A stretch of 64,000 nucleotides of DNA, from positions 64,664-128,663 of the forward strand of contig QHYI01000118.1 in assembly GCA_003223245.1 (NCBI GenBank), given 5' to 3'. Of the stretch, positions 19,537 through 55,100 are shown in pieces. Position 1 is the stretch's first letter; the number at the start of each line of letters is the position of its first letter. Below the pieces are notes generated by a model. That model had not been told where the DNA came from. It searched no databases and saw nothing but the letters and a program-made list of their open reading frames with translations. Made by a program: the position numbers and the translations under genes. This DNA comes from Acidobacteriota bacterium. Lineage in GTDB: Bacteria; Acidobacteriota; Terriglobia; Acidiferrales; UBA7541.

Positions 19537-20715
19537 ATGAGCGCGAACATTCTGGACATTCAAAGCGATTTGCGTAATGCCAAGCTTGATGGCTGGCTCT
19601 TTTACGATTTTCGGAGCCGGGATCCCATCGCGCAAACCATTTTGAACTTGCCCAACGGCATGCGCACGCGACGCTGGTATTACTTTGTGCCAGCCAATGG
19701 CGAACCGAAAAAACTGGTTCATAAGATCGAATCGGAATCGCTCGCGGCTTTGCCGGGCGACACGCTGTATTATGCGGCGCAAGACGAGCTGCATAAGAAT
19801 CTCAAGAGGATGTTGGGGCGCGCGAAAAAAGTGGCGATGCAGTATTCGCCGAAGAACGAAATTCCTTACGTCGCAATGGTGGATGCGGGGACTGTGGAGT
19901 TGGTGCGGGCCGCTGGAGCAAAAGTGGTGAGCTCCGCGGACCTGGTGCAGAAATACGAAGCCTGCTGGAGCGCCGAGCAGAAGGAGTCTCATTTTTCCGC
20001 TGGAGTGATCATCGACCGCATCGTCCGCGGGGCGTTTGAGCACGCGGCGAAATGCGTGCGCGAAAAGAAGCCGCTGACGGAATACGATTTGAAGCAGTGG
20101 ATCTTGAAGGAATTTGAAGCGGCGGGGATCTGGGCGGAAGAAGGACCGGACATTGCTGTGAACGCGCATGCGAGTGACCCGCATTACGGCCCGACGCCGC
20201 AGTCTGCAGCACCGATCCGCGAAGGCGATCTGCTGCTCCTCGATGTGTGGGGAAAGAAGAAAGCGGCGGGAAGCGTTTATTACGATGTGACCTGGATGGG
20301 CTATCTCGGCGCGAAAGTGCCGGAGAAATATGCGAAGATTTTTGCGGTAGTGCGTGAAGCACGCGACAAGGCCGTAGACTTGATCCGCACTCACGTTGCG
20401 AAAAAGAAACCGTTAGAGGGTTGGCAGGTAGACAAAGCGGCCCGCGGTGTCATCGAAAAAGCCAGATACGGCAAATATTTTTTTCATCGCACTGGCCACA
20501 GTATCGGCGAAAAAGTTCACGGCAATGGCGTGAACATGGATGGCCTCGAGACGCACGACGCGCGCCATTTGATTCCACATACCTGCAATTCGATTGAGCC
20601 AGGGATCTATCTACCGGAGTTTGGCGTGCGCAGCGAAGTGAATGTGTACATTGATGAAAAGGAAGCGCGCGTGACAGGCGCGGTGCAAAGCGAGATCCTG
20701 CCGTTGCTTGCGTAG
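19537..20715 (+). CDS. M24-family Xaa-Pro aminopeptidase-like peptidase
   Basis: M24 fold metal-site motifs DVWGKKKAAGSVYYDVTWMG, HRTGHSIGEKVHGNGVNMDG, EPGIY. Confidence 0.92.
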   Translation: MSANILDIQSDLRNAKLDGWLFYDFRSRDPIAQTILNLPNGMRTRRWYYFVPANGEPKKLVHKIESESLAALPGDTLYYAAQDELHKNLKRMLGRAKKVAMQYSPKNEIPYVAMVDAGTVELVRAAGAKVVSSADLVQKYEACWSAEQKESHFSAGVIIDRIVRGAFEHAAKCVREKKPLTEYDLKQWILKEFEAAGIWAEEGPDIAVNAHASDPHYGPTPQSAAPIREGDLLLLDVWGKKKAAGSVYYDVTWMGYLGAKVPEKYAKIFAVVREARDKAVDLIRTHVAKKKPLEGWQVDKAARGVIEKARYGKYFFHRTGHSIGEKVHGNGVNMDGLETHDARHLIPHTCNSIEPGIYLPEFGVRSEVNVYIDEKEARVTGAVQSEILPLLA

Positions 20716-20734
20716 TTTTGAAGAGGGAACAGGT

Positions 20735-21157
20735 ATGGCTGAAGAATCAACTTCATCCGAACCGGCAATCCGGCCAAAGGATTCCAAACACGAAACCAGG
20801 GCTGCCATTGTCGGCGTGGCAGCTTGGCTCGTGCCCGGTCTGGGGCACGCGCTGATGAAGATGTGGGGCCGCGCGGTGGTTTGTTTCTTGACCGTGGGCG
20901 TGCTCGTATGGGTCGGCGCTGGGATGCGCGGAAATCTTTTCGCCTCGAGAGGAAATGATGCATTCGGTTCGCTGAGATACCTTGCGGATCTCGGCACCGG
21001 TGGATTTTATTGGGTGGCCAAATCGCTGGAATCGAACGGCCCGGACGTGTCGCACGCGGACGGCGATTATGGAACAAGGTTTCTCGCCACCGCCGGAGTG
21101 TTCAATTTGCTGGCGGCGCTGCATGCTTACGAAATCGCGCGGGGTCGCAAAGCATGA
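20735..21157 (+). CDS. Small membrane protein (DUF6677-like)
   Basis: AWLVPGLGHALMKMWGRAVVCFLTVGVLVWVGAGMRGNLF. Confidence 0.7.
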   Translation: MAEESTSSEPAIRPKDSKHETRAAIVGVAAWLVPGLGHALMKMWGRAVVCFLTVGVLVWVGAGMRGNLFASRGNDAFGSLRYLADLGTGGFYWVAKSLESNGPDVSHADGDYGTRFLATAGVFNLLAALHAYEIARGRKA

Positions 21158-21402
21158 TGGCCCTAATGACCACGACCGTGAACGCCGCGATGGCGATTGG
21201 GTTGACCATGATTGCGTCGATGGTGCTTAAGCTCAGCCATTTGCAAGCTATGGTCCTCTTCGCTCTGGTGATTTCGGTTGCGTTCGGATTCCTGGGTCGC
21301 CGCCGGCCCATGGAACGCTTGAAGTACATCCTTTGGACGCTGCTTCTGTTTCTCTTGATTGGCGTGGGCATCGGCTGGGCCATGTATCCCTTCTCCCACT
21401 GA
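21154..21402 (+). CDS. Small membrane protein whose 3' end is duplicated at 38.5 kb
   Basis: 82 aa, MMALMTTTVNAAMAIGLTMIASMVLKLSH...GWAMYPFSH; ATGA overlap with upstream gene. Confidence 0.75.
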   Translation: MMALMTTTVNAAMAIGLTMIASMVLKLSHLQAMVLFALVISVAFGFLGRRRPMERLKYILWTLLLFLLIGVGIGWAMYPFSH

Positions 21403-21425
21403 ACGTCTTGCCGGGAACAGTTCCG
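21287..21425 (+). repeat. Direct repeat copy L (3' end of the small membrane-protein gene plus downstream bases)
   Basis: GATTCCTGGGTCGCCGcCGGCCCATGGAACGCTTGAAGTAcATCCTTTGG...CACTGAACGtCTTGccGGgAACAGTTCCG; matches 38506-38637. Confidence 0.9.
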
Positions 21426-38379: not shown

Positions 38380-38505
38380 TCACGCCGGGATCAAGCACGC
38401 CATACGGGTTCGCGGAAACGCAATCTTTACCGCTGTGCATACCGAAAAACTCCATCCAGCGGTTTCCCGTCGAATGACTATTGTTACTTCCCGGTCGCGC
38501 CTTCT

Positions 38506-38637
38506 GATTCCTGGGTCGCCGTCGGCCCATGGAACGCTTGAAGTATATCCTTTGACGCTGCTTCTCTTGATCGGCGTGGGCATCGGCTGGGCCATGTATC
38601 CCTTCTCCCACTGAACGTTTTGCAGGAAACAGTTCCG
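38506..38637 (+). repeat. Direct repeat copy R: decayed duplicate of the 21154-21402 gene 3' end
   Basis: Near identical to 21287-21425 but with a 1-bp (CTTTGGACG>CTTTGACG) and a 6-bp deletion plus point changes. Confidence 0.9.
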
Positions 38638-39313
38638 ACTCGCTTTTACTTCGCTCGCAGTCGATTGACTGAGTTTTTGGTAGAGACAGGGGCCAAATTG
38701 ACGCAAGTCCCGTATTTCCCGATGTTGAAGGAGGACAACGTTCGAAAGGGCTTTGTCACGATTGAGCAGTTTAGGAAGCTGCGTGAGGCGATGCCCGAAC
38801 ACCTTCGTCCATTGATAACGTTCCTGTATTTCACCGGGTGCAGAATTGGGGCTGCTCTGGCGATTACCTGGTCGCAAATGGAGTTTCAAAGTGGGACGGC
38901 GCAGCTTCGCTTAGAAGGGAACCAGACGAAAAACGAGGACCCGATTCTGCTGCCTTTACCTCTTGAAGTGAGCGAGATCTTGAAGGAACTGCCGCGCGAA
39001 GGAAAGGTGTTCGATGCCAGGAACCTGAAGGAACCTGCGCAAAGCTTTTCAAGCTGCATGCGTTAAGGTAGGATTGGGAGTGAAGACGGGCCCAAAGGTG
39101 TGGCAGTAGAAGGGCCTCATACTGCATGATTTTCGCCGGAGTGGGGTTAGGAATCTCATCCGGTCGGGCGTCCCTCGAACGATTGCCACGAGGATTTCAG
39201 GGCACCTTACCGAGTCTACTTTCGAGAGGTACAACATCGTGGACTCGACCGATTTGCATCAGGCGATGGTGGAGGTCGAGAAACATTTCGATGGCACTTT
39301 GGGTGGGAGTTGA
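38620..39313 (+). pseudogene. Tyrosine recombinase/integrase, 5'-truncated, frameshifted, in-frame stop
   Basis: RKGFVTIEQFRKLREAMPEHLRPLITFLYFTGCRIGAALAITW, then in another frame RKAFQAACVKVGLGVKTGPKVWQ*KGLILHDFRRSGVRNLIRSGVPRTIATRISGHLTESTFERYNIV. Confidence 0.88.
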
Positions 39314-39405
39314 TTGCCGTGTGGAGGGCGGTTTGATTGAGGTTTGATTGAGGTTGGGCCAAATAGGGGCAAGGCGGAGAAATAAGTCTTTTATTACCAA
39401 TCAGG

Positions 39406-39480
39406 GCCGAGGTAGCTCAGTGGTAGAGCAGCCGATTCGTAATCGGCAGGTCGCGAGTTCAACTCTCGCCCTCGGCTCCA
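39406..39480 (+). tRNA. tRNA-Thr(CGT), CCA encoded
   Basis: Full cloverleaf: acceptor GCCGAGG/CCTCGGC, D-stem GCTC/GAGC, anticodon stem GCCGA-TTCGTAA-TCGGC, T-stem GCGAG-TTCAACT-CTCGC, TCCA 3' end. Confidence 0.95.
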
Positions 39481-39500
39481 TACTTTCAATAGCTTAGCGA

Positions 39501-40171
39501 TCAGTTGACCGAAACCTGCTGCACATCTGCTGCACAAGCAATTCTCTGTTCCAGCCGCTTCATCGCCTCGGTCACCACGCTCGGCAACGTCTTGATGTAG
39601 CTCCTCTGCGTCGTTTTAACATCTTCGTGGCGCAGGATTGCTTGTCCGGGATTCCGAGTTCGTGCAGGTTCTTGGCTAAACCTCGGCGATAAGCGTGCCA
39701 GCCTTTCCAGTTTAGGCCGTTCGCCTTGAGCACTGGCTTGATCACCCGGTCAGCGAGATTGTCGAGGTCGAGTGCCCCGCCGATGCTGTTTGCGAACATC
39801 CAGCCCGACCCGGCTTGAGGTCGAATCTGGTCAAGCATGAGACGGAACGGTTGAATGATGGGCACAACGCCGGGGTTGTCCTCATCCTCGTGAGTCTTCG
39901 TCTCGTCTAGCACAACGCTGTGCCAGACCGAACGCCGAATGTTGAGGACAGACAACTCGTCGTCTTCCCACCACAAACCACGGATTTCTCCCTCCCGCAG
40001 CCCTGCAAAAGCTGCCACCCCGATCACAGCGCGAATGAGTCTCACTGAAATCTTAGGGGCATAGGTTGAACCGTCCCCGTTGACGATCAGAATCGGATCA
40101 TTCTTGAAGAGATCAAGATGTTGCTCGATTTCTGCGAGGGAGTAAGTCAATCGCTTCCGAATATTGCCCAC
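39501..40171 (-). pseudogene. Second tyrosine integrase, N-terminally truncated and frameshifted
   Basis: ORF 39572-40171 has AFAGLREGEIRGLWWEDD; after ELGIPDK another frame continues ILRHEDVKTTQRSYIKTLPSVVTEAMKRLEQRIACAADVQQVSVN*. Confidence 0.85.
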
Positions 40172-40582
40172 CGTCCGAGAGCCGGTGACCTAGGTTGGCC
40201 ATGGCGCCCACGATCCGGTCATAGCCACCGAGCCGGGATTTTCCTTCGCCATCCGCACCACCAACCGCTCGGTTTCCTCGTCAACTCGGGGACGACCCCA
40301 GGATTTGCGAAACTTCGATCCGTCGAACTTGTTGGCGATGAGCTTGCGGTACCAGGCCAGCAGCGTATCCGGTTTCGCGACAGCCGCCAATTCTTCCAAG
40401 GCCTTCCGTTTGAGCCGGTGGGCGATCTCCGCCAACGTAGCTTTTTCGGCATCGGATAACAACAACCTGCCTTTGATTTGGGCTCTCAGGATGCGGTTCT
40501 CTGCGGCCAGATATTCGTTCCTCAGTAGTAGTTCCTGGTCTACGGTTCCGGTGATGTAAGCAAGCATGCGAGCCCAAATCAT
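40150..40582 (-). mobile_element. IS transposase fragment (integrase-core type, N-terminal part, frameshifted)
   Basis: MIWARMLAYITGTVDQELLLRNEYLAAENRILRAQIKGRLLLSDAEKATLAEIAHRL...KPDTLLAWYRKLIANKFDGSKFRKSWGRPRVDEETERLVVRMAKENPGS then GYDRIVGAMANLGHRLSD in a second frame. Confidence 0.8.
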
Positions 40583-40758
40583 TCCAGAGCCTCCGTAAAC
40601 TTGATCGTCGAACCCGGATTGTACATGCTCTTGAGGTTTCAGAAAGCAGCTGTGTGACAAAATTACGAGACCGGAAACCAAGCCTTTTCAATACGTTTGA
40701 GATTTTTGACCACACGGGATCATCGGGTTGTGGAAGATAGTCCATCCGTAAATTCATG

Positions 40759-40787
40759 TTGACAGAGAGGGAATCTTGGCCTAAATT
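40759..40787 (+). promoter_or_regulatory. Putative sigma70-type promoter
   Basis: TTGACA, 17-nt spacer, TAAATT upstream of the lipoprotein gene. Confidence 0.5.
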
Positions 40788-40909
40788 TCCTCCAATAGTT
40801 CTATTCTGGGCACGTGACCAAGGATAAAAAGGCGTTCTTTCTGTCCGCTCCGCGAGCAGTTCGATCGGAAAGCCCAGCAGTGACCCGCGGAGAAAGAGAA
40901 GGCCCTGCG

Positions 40910-42424
40910 ATGCGAACGACTCTTCTGCTCGGGTTATCCCTTCTTTCCAGCTTGATTCTCGGTTGTCCTCCCGCATCCAACGTCAATCCCGGCTCGCCGT
41001 CGAACCCCGGTCCTGCGACGACGCTTCCGGTAGTTACGCTAGTGGACATCATCCCGGAGTCTCTCGGCGGCGAGACGAATCAGGACAGCGAGCCCTTCCT
41101 CGCCGCGCACTCGGACCCGAATGTGTTGGCTGCTTCGGCGTTCACGCCCAATCCGTCAGGTGCATCGAGCTCGACGGCTCCTATCTTCATCTCGCTCGAT
41201 GGTGGCGACACGTGGACTCTCAACGCTATCGTTCCCAGCGCGGCGATGACCTGTGACATTACACAGGCGTTCGGCGGAACAGCCGTTAACCTGCCGCGCG
41301 GCACGCTCTACAACGGGATTCTGAGAAATCCTTGCTCGAACGGAACCACTCTGCGCGAGCTGGACACGCCCGACATCGCTTCCTCCGCCCCGATGGCCGT
41401 CCAGAATTCGCGGGACGATGTCGATCAGCCTTTCATCCAAGTGGTTCAGTTTCAGAACAAAGACCACATATTCATCGGCAACAACGACTTTGGTGGACCA
41501 AACGGGCGCACGGCGACACTGGACCTATCAACGGACGGAGGTAGCACCTACCAGCCAATTCGCCTCGAAAAGCGAAACACAAATCCGTCGAATGCGCCTT
41601 CGATCCGACCCACGGTTGCGAAGGACAGGACTGTTTATGTGGCATTCTTTGGATGGCGCAGTTTTTCGGGGGACGCGACCTCCGGGACCGCGACTAGCGA
41701 CATCGTCGTCGTGCGCGACGACAGCGGTGGAACAAGCGTTCCTCCATTTGAAGCGCTCAAAGACCCTTCGGACAATGTGGCCGGCCGCTTGGTCGCTACG
41801 GGCCGCACCATTCCCTGGGCGAATCCCTGGCCGAACCCCGGGCCTCTGGGACAGGAGCGCATTGGCTCAAGCCTCTCGATTGCCGTAGACCCAAATGACA
41901 GCAAGACTCTTTACATCGCATGGGCTGATCGCAGCGGGAGCGACATCTACACGCTTCATCTCCGTCGGTCAGTAGACCGCGGACAAACCTGGTCGGGCGA
42001 TCTACGCACTCTCTCCAATGCCACGAATCCAGCGTTGGCGATCGCCGAAAACGGCACCGCGGGTTTTCTGTACCAACAGGTGACCGGTTCGGGCGGCACC
42101 GCTCGCTGGGCCACACACTTGGAACAAACCAGGGACGCCTTCGCGCACATCAAAGATACTGTCTTGGCGAACACGCCGGCCAACGAGCCGCCCATGAAAG
42201 GCCTGCCCTATCTTGGGGATTATAATTACTTGCTTGCCGCGCAAGGCGAGTTCCGTGGCATTTTCTCAGCGAACAACAAGCCCGACCCGGCAAATTTCCC
42301 GAGCGGGATGCCCAAGTACCAACGTCACGTGGATTTGACAACAAAGCAATTGCTCGATGGCTCGGTGAATCCGGTGGATGTTTCCATTGACCCCTTCTAT
42401 TTTCGAGTTTCCGTCCTGCACTGA
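40910..42424 (+). CDS. Secreted lipoprotein with sialidase/BNR-like beta-propeller repeats
   Basis: Lipobox LILGC; ISLDGGDTWTLN, LSTDGGSTY, RSVDRGQTWSGD Asp-box-like motifs; start trimmed to MRTTLLLGL. Confidence 0.75.
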   Translation: MRTTLLLGLSLLSSLILGCPPASNVNPGSPSNPGPATTLPVVTLVDIIPESLGGETNQDSEPFLAAHSDPNVLAASAFTPNPSGASSSTAPIFISLDGGDTWTLNAIVPSAAMTCDITQAFGGTAVNLPRGTLYNGILRNPCSNGTTLRELDTPDIASSAPMAVQNSRDDVDQPFIQVVQFQNKDHIFIGNNDFGGPNGRTATLDLSTDGGSTYQPIRLEKRNTNPSNAPSIRPTVAKDRTVYVAFFGWRSFSGDATSGTATSDIVVVRDDSGGTSVPPFEALKDPSDNVAGRLVATGRTIPWANPWPNPGPLGQERIGSSLSIAVDPNDSKTLYIAWADRSGSDIYTLHLRRSVDRGQTWSGDLRTLSNATNPALAIAENGTAGFLYQQVTGSGGTARWATHLEQTRDAFAHIKDTVLANTPANEPPMKGLPYLGDYNYLLAAQGEFRGIFSANNKPDPANFPSGMPKYQRHVDLTTKQLLDGSVNPVDVSIDPFYFRVSVLH

Positions 42425-42460
42425 CGGCGAGTGCCCACGGGAGGAGAGGAGGCAGTAGCC

Positions 42461-43321
42461 ATGAGAAAACATTGGATGGTACAGGCATCGCGATCGGTGG
42501 TTTTCTGCTCGCTCGTCGTCGGAGTCCTCCTGCACTCCAGTTGGGCACAGGACCGCGCAGCTCTCATGAAGCAAGCGAGCATCATCTTCCGTGGCACCGT
42601 AAAGAAAAAAGGAGACGTGTCTTTCAAGGGCATTCCCAAGTCGGACCGGACCATTGTGGTTGTGGTCGACGAAGTGATCCAGAAGCCGTCCGCAGTCTCA
42701 CTTGCCAAAGGAGCAGAGGTGACCGTGGATGCGGTAGACGCCGAGGCGCTGTCCGCCGGTTCCAGTTTTGTTTTTTACACGGAAGGCTGGATCTACGGTT
42801 CTGGGGTGGCCGTACGCGAAATCGGTCACGAGGCTGCTCCTGTGCGAACGGCGGAGTTGGCGGAGCCCATGGGAGCCCAGCTTGAACAGACCCGGAAGGA
42901 GATGAGCGACAACGAACTCCGCTCTCGCCTGGATGCTGCGGACATCGTCGTGACCGGCCAAGTCACTGCGGTGCATCCCTGGAACCCGCCGTCCCTGGTT
43001 GCAACTCGGCCGCGCATCTCCGAACACGCCGCCAACTGGCAGGAGGCCGTGATTCGTGTCAAAACAGCATTGAAGGGCGCGCCCGCGGATCATGAAATTG
43101 TAGTGCGTTTTCCGGGGTCCTGGGACATCGCCTGGGCATCGACTCCCAAGCTCCAGTCCGGGCAATCGGGCACTTTCATTCTTCAGAAGGACAAGGTTAC
43201 CGGTGTGCCGAGGGCGGCGCTCGCAGGCAGATCCGTGGATGCTCATACTGCCCTGAAGCCGGGCGACGTCTTGCCGATCAGCGAAGCGCAGCGTGTCCGT
43301 GCGCTCTTGCGGAAGGAGTAG
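42461..43321 (+). CDS. Secreted hypothetical protein
   Basis: MRKHWMVQASRSVVFCSLVVGVLLHSSWAQ signal peptide; 286 aa. Confidence 0.65.
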   Translation: MRKHWMVQASRSVVFCSLVVGVLLHSSWAQDRAALMKQASIIFRGTVKKKGDVSFKGIPKSDRTIVVVVDEVIQKPSAVSLAKGAEVTVDAVDAEALSAGSSFVFYTEGWIYGSGVAVREIGHEAAPVRTAELAEPMGAQLEQTRKEMSDNELRSRLDAADIVVTGQVTAVHPWNPPSLVATRPRISEHAANWQEAVIRVKTALKGAPADHEIVVRFPGSWDIAWASTPKLQSGQSGTFILQKDKVTGVPRAALAGRSVDAHTALKPGDVLPISEAQRVRALLRKE

Positions 43322-43452
43322 CCCTTGTTCCGTCTCGGCGTTACTTCGAGAAGACCGGCAGGCTTCCGCACCTCACAACTCTTGAGAAGGCGATAGAAAA
43401 ATCAGTCGAGGCGCGGACAAGGCGAGTGGGAATTCGATCACTAAGCGAGCGG

Positions 43453-45039
43453 CTACGGCTTCAGCCGCTTATCCGTGCATAGTTTGTCGAGTCTCTTCCC
43501 CAGATCCGGACGCTCGCCGGGCGGGAGTTTTTTTCCGGATACTTCATAGGCTGCGCAGAAGTACGCCACCGCGGCCCGATCCCAAACTTGTTTGGCTGCA
43601 TGCACGGGAAGAGGCGGTAGCTGGCCGGCGGCAGGCGGCGTTTTCGCGGCCCCCTGCGCCGCAGCACTCGCCGCCTCCGGGACAGGGCAGGACAACCTTG
43701 CGTTCTTCTCTTGAAAAACTTTCAATGAAGTTGCACTCTGCTGCGCCGCAGTCATCTTGGCTGAAAATCTCGGAAAAACGTTCGTGCCGAATCCAGCCGC
43801 TGTCAGGCCCTTGCCCTGATTGAAGTACCGAAACAATCTTCCCACGTGCTCTTCCGAACTTTCCGCAGGGCTGGTTTTCGTCGCCTCGCTCTTTCGAGTC
43901 GTAAGCATCTGTAGCAGATTCTCCTTCTCGACCTTCTTGTACTCCACGGAGGAAGCCGCGTCCGGCCAGGTGAACTGTACAATCACCTCGGTCAGTCCTT
44001 GCCCGCCCGGAGGGGGCAGGGGAATGGTGATCTCTTCGCCCCGATCTGGCACAAAGTTATAAGCAGGGCACTGACTCAGCTGGGGAATCGAACTTGCAAC
44101 CTCTTGACTCTTGACGATCGGGCCAGCCGTTGACTTGTACGGTAGAACGAGATGGATGGCCTGTCCCGTAGAGGCGACGTCTAGCTGGTGATCCAGGTGA
44201 CTGCAGAAGCCTTCGTCGCCCCAATTGCGCGCAAAAATCGCCCAGGTGTTATTTCCCTTCGATTCATCCACCTGGATCGCGACTGCATAAGCAGGATGAA
44301 CTTCGCTCCGGCACCCGTGCTCACAATCTATGCCAAAGATGCCGTAAATCACACCGTATGCGAGTCCTGGGCCGGGGTGCAGGTGATTCTCAACTGTGGA
44401 ATAGTCTCCCGAAGCAGCCCCCTCCGATGCCAATCGAGCGAAATCCTCCCACCATTGAGTGCCAAACCGGCTCTCTAACTCGCGAGAATCGAACTCGACC
44501 TCGATGTATCTGCCGTCGTTATGGGAAAGTTCATTGTTGTTTCCTGTAAGGCCGTTTTCATTATCCGGCACTAGCAGCAGGTTATAGTCCCAGTCGTCGG
44601 CAAAGTTCAGCCAGCCAACAGCTCCTTGCCCGCTAGCTACCGTCCAGTCGGCATGGCCATTAATCGAAGAGGAATCCCCGAACAGACTGCAGAGTGCTCC
44701 CGTAATTCCGGCCCCCGTGTCCTCCACAAGGTACTTTGATTGGTCTGTGCACGCGCCTTGGTACGGTTGGACGTTCTTCTTCTTGCAATCGGAATCCACC
44801 GTGGGTGGGAGATTCTGGGGTTTCTGAATCTGCGGAGCCCAACGGGGATTGTCGGGAGAACCGTTCGAGTCACTGCCCGGCGAGGTCAGATCGAAGTCCT
44901 TCGCGCCCGTGGTGGTGCCATACGGCGGCTGTGGCGTCCAAGTGGCTGGATGTCGAGGACAACCAGGGAGTATGAGAACACAGCTAAACAAAAGCGAAAT
45001 CAAAAGAATCGCGCCGACTCGTTGTGTGAGAAGCGCCAT
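43453..45039 (-). CDS. Putative lipoprotein of unknown function
   Basis: LLISLLFSCVLILPGCPRHPATW lipobox; 528 aa; no recognised family. Confidence 0.65.
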   Translation of the reverse strand: MALLTQRVGAILLISLLFSCVLILPGCPRHPATWTPQPPYGTTTGAKDFDLTSPGSDSNGSPDNPRWAPQIQKPQNLPPTVDSDCKKKNVQPYQGACTDQSKYLVEDTGAGITGALCSLFGDSSSINGHADWTVASGQGAVGWLNFADDWDYNLLLVPDNENGLTGNNNELSHNDGRYIEVEFDSRELESRFGTQWWEDFARLASEGAASGDYSTVENHLHPGPGLAYGVIYGIFGIDCEHGCRSEVHPAYAVAIQVDESKGNNTWAIFARNWGDEGFCSHLDHQLDVASTGQAIHLVLPYKSTAGPIVKSQEVASSIPQLSQCPAYNFVPDRGEEITIPLPPPGGQGLTEVIVQFTWPDAASSVEYKKVEKENLLQMLTTRKSEATKTSPAESSEEHVGRLFRYFNQGKGLTAAGFGTNVFPRFSAKMTAAQQSATSLKVFQEKNARLSCPVPEAASAAAQGAAKTPPAAGQLPPLPVHAAKQVWDRAAVAYFCAAYEVSGKKLPPGERPDLGKRLDKLCTDKRLKP

Positions 45040-45591
45040 AGCATTCCACTCTATCTCATATCTAACATAGCTATTTATATCCTAGCTAGCTAGATGTCCG
45101 TCAAGCATGTTGTTCCGAAAAATCAGAACTCACGCGAAAGCAGCTCATCGGACTTCCGCTTCCGCCAACATTCGTGATTGGTCTTGAATATGCCTGTTTC
45201 TGACGTCTTGGCGAGCGTCGAACTTGGAGAGAGGCACTTTTCGGAATCTCTGAATGGTCGACTCAACGGAAATCTTGAAGGGCCCTCACTCGCCTTGGCG
45301 CTTCCCATCAAGGCAAAGGACCCGCCGACAAACAAGCATGGGATTGATTCTTCTTGGCAAAGCCGACTTTCTAACGCACGGCCTGGAGCAGCATTCGGAG
45401 GTTATTGGCGACTGGTAAATGACAACGGGCCATGCAAGAGCAATCCGGCTCCAGGCGCATTGTTTTGCCAATTGTGAACTGTAGAATCGATCCAGATTTT
45501 GGAGATGTATCTCGTAGAGGGCTGGTTCAACCGCGAGGGAGCGATCGTACAGTTCCAAGGCGGTAGTGTTTTGCGATGGCGACGTTTTCGC

Positions 45592-45620
45592 TTGACAGTG
45601 CATAACACTGGTGTTATATT
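45592..45620 (+). promoter_or_regulatory. Promoter of the HigBA-like operon
   Basis: TTGACA, 17-nt spacer, TATATT. Confidence 0.75.
45602..45617. promoter_or_regulatory. Candidate autoregulatory operator in the promoter spacer
   Basis: ATAACAC-TG-GTGTTAT, perfect 7-bp arms overlapping the -10 box. Confidence 0.65.
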
Positions 45621-45626
45621 ACATGA

Positions 45627-45983
45627 ATGGCATGGGACATCGAAGCGACCGACGAGTTCAAGCAGTGGTTCGCGGGATTGGCTGAAGCCGAGCAGATTTC
45701 CATTGGCCGTAAGGTCGATTTGCTCGAGATGCTTGGACCGGTATTGGGAAGGCCCGATGTGGATTCGATCAAAGGTTCGCGCTTTCCGAATATGAAGGAA
45801 TTGCGCGTTCAGCACGGTGGCAAGCCATATCGTGTGCTTTTCGCCTTCGATCCGCGCCAAACGGGAATCCTGCTGATTGGCGGGCGCAAGGGTGCGAAAG
45901 GCTGGTACGAGAAAGCCATCGCTCTTGCGGATGGCATCTATAGCCGCTATTTAGCGGAACTCAAGAAAGAGGGGTTGATCTGA
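45627..45983 (+). CDS. HigB/RelE-type toxin (phage Gp49-like)
   Basis: FKQWFAGLAEAEQISIGRKVDLLEMLGP...GSRFPNMKELRVQHGGKPYRVLFAFDPRQTGILLIGGRKGAKGWYEKAI. Confidence 0.9.
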   Translation: MAWDIEATDEFKQWFAGLAEAEQISIGRKVDLLEMLGPVLGRPDVDSIKGSRFPNMKELRVQHGGKPYRVLFAFDPRQTGILLIGGRKGAKGWYEKAIALADGIYSRYLAELKKEGLI

Positions 45984-46328
45984 ATGCGGACAAAATGGAG
46001 CGATTTGAAAAACGAAACGATGAGTCCGGTGGCGCAGCGTAAAGCCCGCGAACTCGCGGAGCGGGACCTGGCTGAAATCGAAATGAGAGAGCTTCGCGAA
46101 ACCTTGAAGGTGACGCAAGAGGAGCTCGCCGACAAACTCAAGGTTACGCAGGTAGCCGTGTCGCGCCTGGAACGCCGCTCCGACATGCATCTGAGCACAC
46201 TTCGGCAGTTCGTGCGCGCGCTCGGTGGCGAGCTGGAGATTCGCGCAGTCTTCGCGGGGCGCTCGGTGAGACTCACACACATCGGAACGGCTAGCGTAGC
46301 GAAGCGCAAATCGCGCTCGCGTCGGTAG
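45984..46328 (+). CDS. HigA-like XRE-family antitoxin
   Basis: LRETLKVTQEELADKLKVTQVAVSRLERRSDMHLSTLRQFVRALGGELEI. Confidence 0.9.
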   Translation: MRTKWSDLKNETMSPVAQRKARELAERDLAEIEMRELRETLKVTQEELADKLKVTQVAVSRLERRSDMHLSTLRQFVRALGGELEIRAVFAGRSVRLTHIGTASVAKRKSRSRR

Positions 46329-46896
46329 CCGTTTGATTGGCCACTGCGGCCCCACGGACATCCCCCTATTCTGGGAACGGATCCTCACACACATGCCGTA
46401 TTCTGAGCTTCACAGCTACATAGCCGCCCTTACGCAGCACCGCCATCCATCGAACTGGCGTGGCGGCAAGGCGCGCGAAGCTTGAAGCTTGAGCTGTCGA
46501 GCATGGCTATCTTGGCATCGGCAGGTGCGCAAGACGTCGGAGTGGAATAACGTTGGCCTCATAATGTTATAGTGCCGACTACAGGCACCCACCTATCGGC
46601 CCCATAACAAAACAAGCGAACTGACATCTACCACCGCGTGAGAGTGGACAGACCGCTTGTCCATTGATCAGGGGGCGACCCAAGCGGCACGAAACACTTT
46701 GCGCCAATCGCTTCTTAATGATCAAGAAACGACTGCTATATAGGAAACTTATTTTTGCGTGAGCCCTTAGCTTAAAACCTTGCAAATAATGGGCTTGAAA
46801 CACGGTTGCTTTGGTCCTGCAACTATTGGTTGAAACGTTTCACAACAATTGAAAACGGGCAGTGCCACAAGCTTTTCGTGCGAGGCTTAAAGAAGT

Positions 46897-47225
46897 ATGG
46901 CTATCACCGAAAAGACACGAAAGTTGCTCTGGGGAAGGTCTGGTAATCGTTGTGCCATGTTCCGTTGCAAGCTCGCAATTGATGAAACAGAAACGAACCC
47001 AGATTCAATCGTTGTGGAGACGAGTGTCATATCGTATCTGGCCAGCAGTTTGGGCCAAGGTACGATTCCAATTTCCCCGCCGATAAATTAGACGAAGCCG
47101 AAAACCTCATTTTGCTCTGTGAGGTTCATCACAAGTTAGTGGATGACCAGACCGAAACCTACACTGCAGACGTTCGTACCGTCCGGCCAGACCATGTTTC
47201 GCCGCTGACTCGTAAGCAACAATAA
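46897..47225 (+). pseudogene. HNH endonuclease, single frameshift
   Basis: MAITEKTRKLLWGRSGNRCAMFRCKLAIDETETNPDSIV then, in another frame, GDECHIVSGQQFGPRYDSNFPADKLDEAENLILLCEVHHKLVDDQTETYTADVRTVRPDH. Confidence 0.8.
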
Positions 47226-47489
47226 TGTCCGGCGCGGCTCAATGTGTCGCGGAAAAGGCGGAGGTGTGGGATGAACCGCTTATCAAGCCACGTTCTATTG
47301 CCGATCTCCACCACGAACCGGCAGGTCGGCATATTCTTTGATGCAATCAATGCCCTAACTCGACAAGGTTCCATCAAAGTTCCATCAAACCGTCAAAAAT
47401 GAGCCTAAACACACCAAAGCCACCAACAGTTAAGTCCTTGATCTTGCTTGGGCTTAGGGTTGGTGGCTTAGGTTCGTTTGGATTAAAAG

Positions 47490-47537
47490 CGATTCGTAAT
47501 CGGCAGGCCGCGGGTTCAAGTCCCGCGCTCGGCTCCA
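47490..47537 (+). repeat. tRNA-Thr 3'-half remnant (att-like site)
   Basis: CGATTCGTAATCGGCAGGCCGCGGGTTCAAGTCCCGCGCTCGGCTCCA, homologous to the 3' part of tRNA-Thr at 39406-39480. Confidence 0.88.
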
Positions 47538-47800
47538 AAATTTGTTGGGTCCAGCCCGATCTACGAGGAAGAGAATTCAGACGCTTCTCAAAGTGCGCGG
47601 TGGAGATGATCACGTTCACTATCTTTGCTACCTTCTGACTGACAGGCGTTCGGGACAAGGAAATGCGCCCATTGAGCGAGCTCCTGCTTAGCAGGCAGCG
47701 GCCCACATTTGCTACCAGCTGCGAGGAAAGCTGACCAAAACAGGAAAAGGAATTTTGGACGCAGCCCATAAGGCTTGGTAAGCTATTCCCAGGCTTACCT

Positions 47801-48079
47801 ATGAAGATTTCCTTGAGTCCGGACGTTGAGCAACTGATCGCTGAAAGGGTCAAAAGTGGCCGCTATCAGTCCGCCGATGAAGCAGTGCGCGAAGGCTTAA
47901 AGCTGCTGGAGGAACGCGAGAAAGAGACGCGTCGCGCGCCTTCAAACGGCACGCCCAATTTCATGGCAGCTTTTGAGAGCATCGCCAATGATGTTCCCGA
48001 TGCGGATTGGGGCAAGGTGCCCGTTGATCTGTCGAAGAATCTGGATCACTACCTTTACGGGGGCCAGAAGACATCCTGA
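47801..48079 (+). CDS. ParD/CopG-like antitoxin
   Basis: MKISLSPDVEQLIAERVKSGRYQSADEAVREGLKLLEEREKE. Confidence 0.85.
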   Translation: MKISLSPDVEQLIAERVKSGRYQSADEAVREGLKLLEEREKETRRAPSNGTPNFMAAFESIANDVPDADWGKVPVDLSKNLDHYLYGGQKTS

Positions 48080-48489
48080 TGGAGCGGGTGTTTGCTGACA
48101 CCGGCTATTGGATCGCGCTTCTGAACCCTCGCGACGATCTTCATAACAAGGCCACTGCAGTCGCGCGAGATTACGGTCTGGGCCAGATCGTAACGAGCGA
48201 GATGGTTCTCACCGAGTTCCTCAACAGCTTCAGCGATTACGGGCCGCGACTGCGGCAAGCGGCAGCAAGGGCGGTCGCATCGCTTCGGGATGCATCCGAG
48301 ATCGTTATCATCCCGCAGACAACTCTGCTCTTTGAAAGGGCGCTGAAGCGATATCAGGACATGACCGACAAGAACTGGAGTCTCACAGACTGCGCCAGTT
48401 TCTTAATTATGGAAGAGCAGCGACTTGCGGCTGCACGCACTCACGACCGGCATTTCGCCCAAGCAGGATTCCAGACGCTGCTGCGCTAA
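48079..48489 (+). CDS. PIN-domain (VapC-type) toxin
   Basis: VFADTGYWIALLNPRDDLHNKA...TSEMVLTEFLN...LTDCASFLIMEEQRLAAARTHDRHFAQAGF. Confidence 0.9.
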   Translation: MERVFADTGYWIALLNPRDDLHNKATAVARDYGLGQIVTSEMVLTEFLNSFSDYGPRLRQAAARAVASLRDASEIVIIPQTTLLFERALKRYQDMTDKNWSLTDCASFLIMEEQRLAAARTHDRHFAQAGFQTLLR

Positions 48490-48649: not shown

Positions 48650-48688
48650 GTGACAGGGCAGCGTTCTAACCAACTGAACTACGTCCCC
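48650..48688 (-). pseudogene. tRNA-Asp(GTC) 5'-half fragment
   Basis: Reverse strand GGGGACGTAGTTCAGTTGGTTAGAACGCTGCCCTGTCAC, then diverges before the anticodon-stem 3' strand. Confidence 0.8.
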
Positions 48689-49452
48689 AGCCGTGGAATC
48701 AGCGACTTACCGTAAAGCCTTAAGGAATAAGGCTGTTGCAAGTTTCGCATATAGCGCACGTTTTGCTTGCGGTGCATACGGTAGCAGCTGTCCATCTCTG
48801 CCCACACCGCCAGCATCGGTTGGTAGCCGCGCGACCCTTCGTAGGTATATAGGGCCTCTCGTTTGCGACTCTCGATTATCGTGGCGTCTTGATCCACCGT
48901 GAAGATCTTCTGATCCGCACAGCGTTCCCCCAACCGCTGAATCAGATCTCGGTTCACTCGCCCCAGCCCCTCCAGCGCCCGGTTCTCTTCGGGAATGTAG
49001 GCGATGGCATCCGGTAGACGCCGTTGCTGTGCTTCCTCAATCTTTTCCTCTTCGTGAAAAGCGTTCAAAAACTTGCGCGCCGCTTCCGGAGAAGGCAGCT
49101 CATGTCCAACGAGCTCCGCCAACCCCCCATCGCTGCGTAGGTGTGCGAAATCGTCCAGGCACTCTCCCCCGGCCGCGTTCAAAATGACGAAACTCTCGAC
49201 GAACGTGGCCTCGTCGTAGCCCCGCTCGCGTTCCTTGACGGCCACGTGTTGCTGCATGCTGCCCGGCAGCCCCAGGGAACGGAATGCTTGGACGACCAGC
49301 GGAATCCCGCCGAGGGCCGTCAAGGTCTCTTCGAGCGGCTTGGGATCCACTTCGAACAGCAACGGCGACTCGGTTGGTGAAGGTTGCATTCGGCGCATGC
49401 CCGCCATCGTACGCGAATCGCGCACCTTGCGGGTGCGAATTCCTGAGCACAC
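48689..49452 (-). mobile_element. IS1380-like transposase, apparently shortened
   Basis: LLFEVDPKPLEETLTALGGIPLVVQAFRSLGLPGSMQQHVAVKERERGYDEATFVESFVILNAAGGECLDDFAHLRSD; VDQDATIIESRKREALYTYEGSRGYQPMLAVWAE; ORF is only 257 aa. Confidence 0.75.
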
Positions 49453-50330: not shown

Positions 50331-50360
50331 ATGGGTCACAAGGAGGTCCCTGTGACCCAT
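50331..50360. repeat. Perfect 10-bp inverted repeat with a Shine-Dalgarno-like loop
   Basis: ATGGGTCACA-AGGAGGTCCC-TGTGACCCAT. Confidence 0.85.
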
Positions 50361-50525
50361 CTACGCAAACTGATGCTGGAGGAACTCCAGCGTCGCAATT
50401 ACTCGCACGAAACTATACGCAGTTACATGCACGCCGTCGAGGATTTTGCTCGACGGTTCAAGTGTTCCCCGGACCGCTTGGGCCCTCAGCACATTCGTCA
50501 ATATCAGGCCGAGCTGTTCCCCTGT
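50352..50525 (+). pseudogene. N-terminal (SAM-like) fragment of a tyrosine recombinase
   Basis: VTHLRKLMLEELQRRNYSHETIRSYMHAVEDFARRFKCSPDRLGPQHIRQYQAELF then loss of similarity. Confidence 0.75.
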
Positions 50526-50539
50526 TCGACGGCACGGCG

Positions 50540-51508
50540 TTTTCATCATCCCGCCGCGGCCCGCGTCCGATCCCTTTCGTCTACCTGCCTATCAATCCCG
50601 AATGGCCGGCTTCTTACGAGTTCTGGGGCGAGGCTGGCTACGAAGCGGAATTCGTAAATGTGGTCTCGGAAATGGAACGCCACTTCCGCGAGAAGGGGTG
50701 GACCCACACGAATTTTGAAGTTTTCTTCAATCACAAGAAACGCTACAAAGGCTTTCCCTGGGATGGCGACGAGGTGCGATTCCCCAAGGACCTCAAATAC
50801 TTCATTGAGTACGGGCGGCTGCTGAAGAAGGCCTTGCCAACCGGCGCTCCCGTCCAGTTCGTTTTCCGGGCCGACGTCAGTTGGGACATGGAGCAACAGT
50901 TCAAGCTCCTTGAGGGAGTTGTGAAGTTGTGGTGTGCTGGCGGAGGCATCTTGAGTTTCTACAGGCACGCACCCACGATGTTGCGCAACCGGGGCGACGT
51001 GGTCTGGTACTACGGCGGGCCTCCGAGCGTGATGGATAGTTCTTCTGCAATCACGGAATCTCCCCTGCGGGCCTGGCTGTGGGGCGTGAATGGCTACGTC
51101 CATTGGCTGACGGTCAGCCCGGGAGAGGACCGCTGGTTCCATTTCGACGGCGGCCAAACTGCCCTCGTGTACTCCGGCGAACGCTTCGGCCTTACCGAAC
51201 CGATTCCCAGCATCAGACTGAAGATGCAACGTAACCGTCTACAAGACCTCGCCGTGCTCGACAGCCTCAAAGGTCACAAGTCCCTCGACTCCCTCAGGGC
51301 CGAAGCGGCGCGTAGGTACAACGACTCGAGCCTCGATGACTGGTGGAATCCTCGGCCTGCGCTGGCCGACCTTCCCTCTGACCAGTGGCTCGGAAGCGCC
51401 ATTGACGATGCGACCAGCCGCACCAGGCAAGCTCTGCAGCACCCAGGTGCGTCCGGCTGGTACAAGGTGCACCGATATGTGCTTAGCCTTCAAGCGGAGG
51501 CAAAATGA
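50540..51508 (+). pseudogene. 5'-truncated DUF4091/GH123-like glycoside hydrolase-like protein
   Basis: PIPFVYLPINPEWPASYEFWGEAGYEAEFVNVVSEMERHFREKGWTHTNFEVFFNHKKRYKG...WLWGVNGYVHWLTVSPGEDRW; open from an upstream frame but lacks a plausible N-terminus. Confidence 0.65.
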
Positions 51509-52095
51509 AAATTCTCTATCTGATCGTGCTCATCGTGAGTTTCACGTTCGCAATGGTGGGAAACCCGAAGCTCAGCCCCGAGGCATCGGTAGCGATGCAA
51601 AAAGAATTGGACGACGTCGCGGGTGTTGGCAGCGTTATGGTGGATGGTGACGTCTGCCAGAAAATCGTCACCGAGCGAGCGAAAGGGTTCCTGTTTGCCA
51701 CTGACCCTCGCGATCAATTCCTTGCGGGCGACAACTACGACGTTGACGACGTGGCATTCAATACCGTCAAGAAAACCTTGATTCGCCTTTCGCACCTGGC
51801 CTCGTTCCCCGCTGACGTCAATCTGTGGATGCCGATCGAGGGCCACCCCGGCAAGATTCAGTTGGTCATTCGCAACAAGAACGAAATGAGCCAATTCTGG
51901 AATTGGGGCGAGCTTTACGGGGACATGGTTCCGCAGATGGAGACCGTGTTGAAGACGGGACGACGGGTCACGGTTACCAGCAAGCCCGGCTGGATTTCTG
52001 TCCTTTCTCCAGTCTATAACAGTTTGGGTGATGTCGTAGGTCTGATCGAAACCGTCAGCCATGTAAAAGTGAATGCGCACGAAAATGTAAAATAG
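51505..52095 (+). CDS. Secreted PDC/cache-sensor-like protein
   Basis: MKILYLIVLIVSFTFAMVG signal; GWISVLSPVYNSLGDVVGLIETVS resembles PDC sensor domains; ATGA overlap with upstream ORF. Confidence 0.6.
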   Translation: MKILYLIVLIVSFTFAMVGNPKLSPEASVAMQKELDDVAGVGSVMVDGDVCQKIVTERAKGFLFATDPRDQFLAGDNYDVDDVAFNTVKKTLIRLSHLASFPADVNLWMPIEGHPGKIQLVIRNKNEMSQFWNWGELYGDMVPQMETVLKTGRRVTVTSKPGWISVLSPVYNSLGDVVGLIETVSHVKVNAHENVK

Positions 52096-52184
52096 CATTC
52101 ACCATGCTCTAGGTGCTCTCTCAAGTCGAATCTCTCGGAAGTAGGCGTCCCGCGGCGTGCAAGCAGCAAGATCTCGGAGGACAT

Positions 52185-55100
52185 ATGCACCACAGTCGTT
52201 TGCGTTCACGGCGGTCGTTTCTGCAAGCGGCCCTGGCAGCGCCCATCGCGGGCATGGTGACAACCTATTCGCCGCTCGGCGGTAGAGACGGGGCGAGCGA
52301 GGCCAGTTCTGTTGTCGCGCGCATCACCCTCGACCATGACCTTTACAACTGCGATGCTGTCTTGAATGGGCGGTTGTACTTTCGCCTGCCGGCGGCCGGG
52401 CCGGTGATCGTGCGCTGGGTGGACAGCTTCGGCCGGACCGTCGACGAATTTCATCCCCCGAATCTTGGTGCGAAAGTAGCGCCACTGAGCTTCTCATTTG
52501 ACCTAGGCCATGGCTTCACTTACCGGAACTGGATTCGAATCTGGGTTAACGATGTTGAGCAGGCCGAGGGAGGGCAGTTTCTGCTTTCGCCATCCCCCAA
52601 GCCTTGGGATGATTTTCACGCCATCAGTTGGGCGCACTATCCGGACGGATTTTACGACCTGCTCCGTCAAGCCGGCGTCGACGCGACAATTGCTTATCGG
52701 GAAGCCGGCGAACCCGCGATCGATAACAACTTTGATTTCTATGTCGAGCAGATGGCCTGGGAAGTCTTTGCGATCTACCACAAGAACCAGCCCCTTTGGC
52801 GGGAGTTACTGAATCGAATCGAGCTCGATCGCAACAATCTAGACTTCTGGATCCGTCATCCCTGTGTGAATGATCCAAAAACGGATGAGTACGTGAAAGA
52901 ACATCTGACCCGGTTCGTCCGCCTGCATCGCGATTTCCGGCCGCTCTTCTACAACATTGCCGACGAGCTCGGCCAGGGCGATCAGATTCGACCCAATGAC
53001 TTTTGCCACTCCACGTACTGCACGAACAAGTTCGCGGAGTATCTTCGCAAAATGTACGGCACGACCGGAAACGTTGCTAGGGAGTGGTCGGTCACCGAAG
53101 AAACTCGCTGGGACGACGAGAGCCTGCGCAACGGGTCCCCCTGGGCAACGAGCAACCTGATGGTGAATCGCACCACGACCGACCAGGCGTTCGATGCCGT
53201 TGCGGTGGCCAATCTCGCAGTCAAATACGGAGGGGTGGCGGGCTTGAACAAAGCCTGGGGCGTGAACTTCCCCGCGCCTAACAACGAGGCGGGCGGCCGA
53301 GAACAGTGGGAGCCGCTCCTAGGATTGCTGAGTGAGACCCGCTCGGTGCCGGAGTTCACCGAAAGAGCTCTCAGCGAGCGCTTAGGGTCCATTGAAAAAG
53401 CCAACGCACGCTGGGGAACTCACACAACCTGGGTGGCTGAGCAGCGATCCACCGGTTTCAAGTCCTGGTCCGAAGTTGCAGCCTTCTTGAATCGGTTTTA
53501 TCAGGAATTGTCGCAGGTCCGGTCAACGGAAGGGTGGAACGTTTCGCCGTGGTGTGACTTCCGCAATTTCATGGATGAGACCTTCGCCGAGGCTGTTGGT
53601 CGGGCCCGGGCTGTCTGCAAAGCTGAAGATCCGCACGCCCGCTGCGCTACCGAGGGCGGCCAAGCTCCCTTTGCCTTCGGTTGGTATAACTACGAAAACG
53701 TCGTCAAGCACGTAGACGTGATTGAGCCATACAACATCGGCAACAATGTGGAAGTGATCCGCTCGCTCAACCGTGACGTTATTATGATTTCCACGCACGG
53801 CTTCCAGCACAAGCCCGGGGTGCCCCTAACAGAAGAAGAGCGCCTTTACCAGAAGCGGGCACCACAGCCTATTTGGTGGGGGTTATTTCACGGCCATCGC
53901 GGATCAATCATCTGGGACGCCAACTTGCCAGACTACCGTTTCGTTGACGAAGAGACCGGGCAGCTCACTCCTGCCGCCCTGACCTACGCTGATACGTTCC
54001 AGGAACTCCATAAAGGCATAGCGAAGCTCATTATTAGCAGTCGGCGGCTCCACGATGGAATTGCCGTCCATTACTCTCAGCCCTCTATGCAGGTCCACTG
54101 GCTGCTCGACAACCTCGAGCATGCGCGGAAATGGATGTTGCACAGCGGCGGAGATCGCGGCAGCCATTTCACAGGCGTTCGCAACGGCTGGACCAAGCTG
54201 ATTGAAGATCTTGGCCTGCAATATGAGTTTGTGGGTGCACGCCAGATCGAGGAAGGCAAGTTGACCCGAAATGAATATCGGATGCTCATACTCCCGCAAT
54301 CGCTCGCGATGAGTGCGCGCGAAGTCGAGCAGATCCGGCAATTTGTTCAAGCCGGCGGCGTCTTGATCGCGGACTGCCGTGCGGCATCCCTGAACGAGCA
54401 CGGACGCGACCTCGGGCACGGTCAGCTCGACAGCATCTTCGGCATCAAGCATGTGAAAGGCCAAGTCAAGGGACGGGCCGTCACTGGCATTGAGAATTAC
54501 GGAGCACTCCGCCTACAGGGTAGAAAGCTCGATCTCATTGTCGGAGAGGAAAGCCTGGGCACTACAACCGGAAAGCCGCTCGCACAGAGCGGCCAAGTCC
54601 CACTTGTTGTCGTCAATGAATTTGGCCAGGGGAAAGCTCTGTTCTTGAATGTTGAGGTGGCCAGCTATCCCTATCACCGGCTGACGCCGACCTCACGGAC
54701 TAGCCTCCCGGAGATCATGGAGCAGATCTTTGGGCTGGCGGGAATTGAGCTGCCGGTTCGCGTGCTCGATGCAACTGGCAATCGCCTCCCTGGCATGGAA
54801 GTTGTCCGGTTTGCGAACGGGGCCTACGAACACGTAGCGATTTTCCGCAACCCGCAGTTCGATGACGGTGGCTGGGGGGGCTTACCAACCCAACCTGAGC
54901 GCGAATGGGCTGGAGCGATCGATAATTCCCTGCTCGAAAAAGAGGTCCTCGTCACCGTCGCGTGGTCTGCTGCGATGGCGACCTATGACATCCGCGGCCG
55001 ACGCGACCTCGGCACCGCAGCCAAGATGCAAATGACTCTTGATCCTTGGAGTCCCCTGGTCCTGACCCGCGCTCCCCAACCCATTCCGAAGCTGCGCGTA

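Follow-up and report, generated by a model that had tools for sequence, protein, structure and literature searches.

The tRNA-Thr(CGT) gene at positions 39406-39480 of the window, the 64,000-nucleotide stretch of a soil Acidobacteriota genome analysed here, has very probably been used as an integration site from both sides, with an island of the usual kind downstream and a separate, reversed island upstream. A preliminary description had recognized a classic tRNA island at this gene. That reading is sound for the 3'-side island, with its tRNA fragment, integrase and joint, but it is incomplete, as an element of a different, 5'-side type, common across the genus but far less so than the classic arrangement elsewhere, appears to flank the tRNA upstream. 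On a wider scale, certain integrase lineages in Acidobacteria may be specialized for the 5' side of tRNA genes, cutting in the anticodon loop, replacing the promoter and 5' half, and so letting a mobile element control how the tRNA is transcribed; where a 3'-side element also occupies the gene, as it does in the window, no part of the tRNA would be of host origin. We put the chances of this wider reading at about even.

The tRNA-Thr gene (+ strand), the sole tRNA of the window, is intact as first described (ARAGORN; Rfam RF00005, 73.5 bits) and has element sequence on both sides. A 54-nt direct repeat of 87% identity joins 39433-39486 to 47490-47543. The tRNA copy within it, at 47490-47537 (+), is 48 nt long, corresponds to tRNA positions 28-75, and lies at +8084 from the tRNA in the same orientation with 89.6% identity; the match (E = 2e-13 within the window) is far beyond chance. 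The recurrence of the tRNA 3' half had been put down to duplication, and here the account changes: 5 of the 48 positions of the copy differ from the intact gene, and the changes in the T stem preserve pairing, which indicates that the copy comes from another tRNA allele and is not a simple duplication. The present gene is probably a mosaic, to which the upstream element contributed the 5' half and the downstream element the 3' half. If the upstream remnant is indeed of the 5' type, nothing in the present gene descends from the host.

The copy lies at a joint. The distal end of the 3'-side element (47340-47489) and the displaced tRNA 3' fragment (47490-47537) have separate counterparts in relatives: on the left, 47340-47512 matches contig C140 of genome G018 at 96.5% and 47364-47537 matches G024:C52 at 88.5%; on the right, 47490-47704 matches G011:C217 (91%) and 47490-47668 matches G016:C2 (89%), both beginning exactly at the tRNA fragment. 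Because the two sides are found separately and their matches overlap only within the tRNA copy, from position 28 onwards, this is a recombination joint and, judged from the alignments, the remnant expected of site-specific recombination in the anticodon stem-loop. The element's tyrosine integrase recombined in that stem-loop, replaced the 3' half of the tRNA, and moved the old half to 47490-47537. Relatives with the same gene order but with neither tRNA fragment nor element, which the preliminary description had held to speak against an island, were not found. A search of relatives for an empty site, with an intact tRNA directly before the window's right flank, also returned none.

A conserved right-hand host neighbor, common to G010, G022 and G048, lies on other contigs in this genome; the sequence beyond 47537 differs from the conserved neighbor of some relatives, and further elements may lie there. 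Just right of the joint are a ParD/PIN toxin-antitoxin pair (47801-48489), a DDE transposase fragment (48679-49452), and an N-terminal integrase fragment (50331-50500), perhaps the debris of such an element. The segment at 50515-53000 (loci L082-L084), the start of a GH42/GH20 glycan-use cluster, is kept at 81-89% in G015, G017 and G047. Homology of the joint's flank to G014 and G020 (gggtccggcccgg) was considered as a host flank and dropped, as on a reading of the sequence it looks, in those two genomes, like the end of an insertion sequence beside the tRNA.

The downstream element, which extends over about 39481-47489, is a real but decayed and ordinary 3'-side tRNA island of 8.0 kb. Its degenerate integrase, already noted as facing the tRNA, occupies 39504-40159 (- strand; 96.6% DNA identity to G043:C171) and corresponds to residues 206-427 of an intact 427-aa homologue in G043 (about 96% identity) that adjoins the same tRNA-Thr. 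The N-terminal 205 residues are missing and the frame is broken near residue 379, so activity from the element's own gene is unlikely. The cargo agrees with the earlier list. It begins with a transposase fragment at 40190-40681 (-), which resembles HTH_32 at a Pfam E-value of 0.007, below the cut-off. An exported, sialidase-like lipoprotein with BNR/Asp-box repeats follows at 40910-42424 (+; PF02012, E = 1e-5, slightly below the gathering score). Two further exported proteins, one at 42461-43321 (+) and a lipoprotein at 43453-45039 (-), had no significant match in Pfam, PHROG or NCBIfam. A toxin-antitoxin pair at 45627-46328 (+) combines a Gp49/RelE-type toxin (PF05973, 6e-19; PHROG 3445, "toxin") with an HTH antitoxin (HTH_3, 1.5e-8). 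The HNH nuclease pseudogene at 46862-47200 (+), a set of short broken frames, stands as a reading of the sequence only.

Directly upstream of the tRNA, outside the coordinates of the preliminary description and missed by it, a second broken tyrosine integrase at 38683-39289 (+; PF00589, 6e-8) reads into the tRNA 5' end. It survives in two pieces and frames with internal stops, and its N-terminal half is missing. The closest intact homologue, a 393-aa protein in G005, occupies the same place and orientation beside tRNA-Thr(CGT). In nine relatives, a host block of peptidase M24, DUF6677 and a small membrane protein ends 65-260 bp before tRNA-Thr; in the window, the block lies at 19537-21402, 18.0 kb away, with the latter two genes at 20708-21402 (+; PF20382, 4e-22; synteny in the nine relatives). 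The small membrane-protein gene's 3' end, with 22 bp more (21275-21425), recurs as a direct repeat of 146 bp and 89% identity at 38492-38637 (+), fused to the truncated integrase. The 17 kb between the two copies form a glycan-use islet encoding a SusC-like outer membrane protein, TPR proteins, an alpha-galactosidase, ASPIC/UnbV, a cytochrome c and an esterase; no recognized recombinase was found in it.

A reversed-side island is marked by a displaced tRNA 5' fragment and by an integrase beside the tRNA 5' end from a lineage that makes such islands. The remnant at 38683-39289 carries the second mark, belonging to a clade of 20 integrases with SH-aLRT support of 100. The window contains no displaced 5' fragment, so the remnant is classed not as a reversed-side island but only as derived from something that worked like one. 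That it was a 5'-type element we infer by homology, its own 5' fragment being gone and its integrase fused to a second host-gene 3' end. As the integrase is truncated and its N-terminal half replaced by this copy, the left border of the element cannot be drawn; near 21.45 kb the window resembles the left ends of 5'-type elements in G013 and G023 over only 14-17 bp, which we do not take as proof. We suppose that the upstream integrase would have recombined in the same anticodon loop, so that the promoter and 5' half of the tRNA were replaced and the old ones pushed leftward, and that the displaced fragment would since have been deleted.

Both the lack of a 5' fragment in the window and the heavy decay of the remnant are also what would be seen if only the 3'-side island were real and the upstream integrase were an unrelated relic abutting the tRNA by chance. 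We consider this improbable. The nearest homologue, intact in G005, likewise lies immediately upstream of tRNA-Thr(CGT); nearly all members of the clade precede a tRNA and read in the same direction; and the sequence just before the tRNA is common to G018, G024 and G047.

Relatives lend support to a two-sided site. We queried 36 genomes of the genus with two integrases and scanned the matches for tRNAs. In 38 cases the integrase precedes a same-strand tRNA by 11-521 bp, in 44 it lies downstream and faces the tRNA, and three pairings are of neither kind; these counts are not frequencies, because the sample follows the queries. Integration from the 5' side by the upstream integrases should displace the 5' half of the host gene to the far end, and it was found so. 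Displaced fragments running from tRNA position 1 to 37-39 lie upstream of tRNA-Thr in G014 (-8.5 kb) and G048 (-14.1 kb), of tRNA-Met in G018 (-10.2 kb) and G011 (-3.6 and -6.3 kb), of tRNA-Leu in G024 (-3.4 kb), and of tRNA-Asp in G049 (-8.8 kb). Each of these genomes combines the displaced fragment, at -3.4 to -14.1 kb, with an integrase beside the whole tRNA, which on sequence comparison establishes the 5' type in relatives. Outside the genus sample, such fragments occur upstream of Met and Lys tRNAs in an acidobacterium and a gemmatimonad. At the Thr site of G013 and G023, the host promoter leads into 37 nt of tRNA, after which foreign DNA begins, and the Thr site of G024 retains a 40-nt tRNA 5' fragment. 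For many tRNA-adjacent upstream integrases, no displaced 5' fragment was found within the 5-20 kb examined.

The break point of the displaced 5' fragments (Thr, Asp, Met, Leu, Lys) coincides with the 3' edge of the seven-base anticodon loop or falls no more than three bases away. Together with the start of the window's 3' fragment at position 28, this indicates that both types of element use the same stem-loop, and we assign the putative 7-bp crossover (overlap) region to the anticodon loop TTCGTAA at 39436-39442 (+). The two types would thus work alike. The palindromic anticodon stem would provide two core sites around the 7-bp loop, the integrase gene would point at the core, and the element would carry one half of the tRNA, 3' or 5'. 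Of 81 elements of both types, 13 contain an integrase-side motif, TAAGTTATT, within one mismatch, versus at most 3 in shuffles; that the types share it is suggestive only.

In every case the upstream integrase is followed by a full tRNA, as would be expected if these elements carried a complete tRNA gene of their own as cargo, and a second identical tRNA-Thr exists in the same genome, on contig C135. We nevertheless find it quite unlikely that upstream elements bring a whole tRNA gene in place of exchanging a 5' half. A cargo tRNA would leave the host gene intact, but at the Thr sites of G014, G013, G023 and G048, the far end of complete elements is a host 5' fragment cut at the anticodon loop behind the host promoter.

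Occupation of one gene from both sides is not confined to the window. Alongside the window's tRNA-Thr, tRNA genes occupied on both sides include tRNA-Asn on C216, tRNA-Gln in G024 and G042, tRNA-Thr in G043, and tRNA-Met in G004. The tRNA-Asn on G000:C216 (L053/L057) has homologous integrases on both sides, each pointing at the tRNA, and the two are sisters in the tree. The tRNA-Met on G011:C321 (L262) and the tRNA-Asp on G049:C14 (L257) each have two displaced 5' fragments at differing distances and are apparent tandem 5'-side islands.

Chimeric joins in this metagenome-assembled genome are the least probable explanation of all: the genome is in 237 contigs, and the 2.5-kb contig C135 shares 1850 bp at 99.7% identity with a contig from the genome of another species, G043, but both sides of the joint at 47490 recur in the independent genomes G018, G024, G011 and G016, and the 39375-39595 region recurs in G047, G018, G024 and G043. 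The contig in question (G000:C135, L049, matching G043:C171, L273) carries the second tRNA-Thr, and its near-identity to that of another species of the genus reflects either recent transfer or a binning error.

Analysis of the integrases revealed that the side of integration follows lineage. Mapped on a tree of 78 integrases from the genus, side takes 11 changes versus 25.9 in shuffles, none of 500 of which was as low. When relatives from other phyla were added, an all-upstream, same-strand clade of 20 integrases was recovered (SH-aLRT 100) that spans Thr, Met, Glu and Gln tRNAs and includes four acidobacterial loci outside the genus sample. A second upstream group joins Leu and Asp, and a third consists of two gemmatimonads. 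Most of the distant relatives, for example from Deltaproteobacteria and Nitrospira, lie downstream and face the tRNA. Side can also flip between sisters, as with the Thr integrases of G014 (upstream) and G042 (downstream) and the two Asn integrases that flank one tRNA. We read integration side as a lineage habit, yet one that does flip; the tree is a quick one, and we do not trust its long branches.

Elements of the 5' type must, in the proposed mechanism, supply transcription of the tRNA themselves. The sequence before the window's tRNA (39367-39405, +) appears to replace an ancestral promoter, TTGACA-18-TATTGT, which stands at empty sites but not here. Identity to relatives is 92-95% for 39375-39480 (G018) and 39379-39480 (G024), and 95% for 39367-39595 (G047). 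The best promoter score at the window's tRNA is 2.3, a weak candidate, versus 12.4-12.6 at empty sites, all scored with sigma-70 matrices that are E. coli-like approximations. Across elements, median -10 box scores are 5.0 upstream of 5'-type tRNAs versus 1.9 on the integrase side of 3'-type elements (p = 8e-7), while the host promoters of 3'-type tRNAs score above both, at 6.3. In several 5'-type elements, such as those at Glu, a clear -10 box begins 14-17 bp ahead of the tRNA. The group-wide enrichment in -10/-35 scores supports, but does not prove, an element-borne promoter for the restored tRNA.

Set against known systems, the downstream element is an ordinary island, and the upstream type is of a rare but known kind. 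According to the Islander account, 3919 tRNA islands were mapped, 3760 with 3' fragments and 159 with 5' fragments (about 4%), and 125 tandem arrays contained two or more islands (PMC4383910). Integration on the 5' side is likewise described as considerably less frequent in a report citing Zhao and Williams 2002 (PMC6563490). Like the 3'-fragment islands that Islander describes (PMC4383910), the downstream element has a tyrosine integrase beside the restored tRNA, a 3' fragment at the far end and a crossover assigned to the anticodon loop; unlike them, it has a decayed integrase, a small passenger set and no identified transfer genes. The upstream type resembles the reversed-side islands (Zhao and Williams 2002, via PMC6563490; 159 of 3919 in Islander) in its displaced 5' fragment and element-supplied 5' half, with complete examples in relatives. 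Compared with those reversed-side cases as described, it differs in being a habit of whole integrase clades in Acidobacteria, across several tRNA identities, and in sharing its tRNA here with a 3'-side island. The thaumarchaeal element CalSub-E1 also integrated into the 5'-distal part of a tRNA gene but is, as presented there, a single archaeal case among 3'-side elements (PMC6563490). As in the tandem islands of Islander, several elements can share one tRNA, for example at Met in G011 and Asp in G049 with their two 5' fragments, whereas the two in the window occupy opposite sides of their tRNA and are not stacked on one. In a limited literature search, we found no description of a 5'-side habit of integrase lineages at many Acidobacteria tRNA genes or of two-sided occupation of single tRNA genes.

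For methods that locate islands, these observations are a caution, as many islands can lie upstream of their tRNA. Sister integrases on opposite sides of a tRNA, namely the Thr pair of G014 and G042 and the Asn pair on C216, offer natural pairs for learning how side preference changes. With most tRNA islands, the promoter and 5' half of the target gene stay those of the host, and this goes some way to explaining the safety of tRNA genes as integration sites. An element that takes over the promoter of a tRNA the cell needs would instead have to keep that tRNA expressed, so that tRNA expression, excision and cell survival would be coupled.
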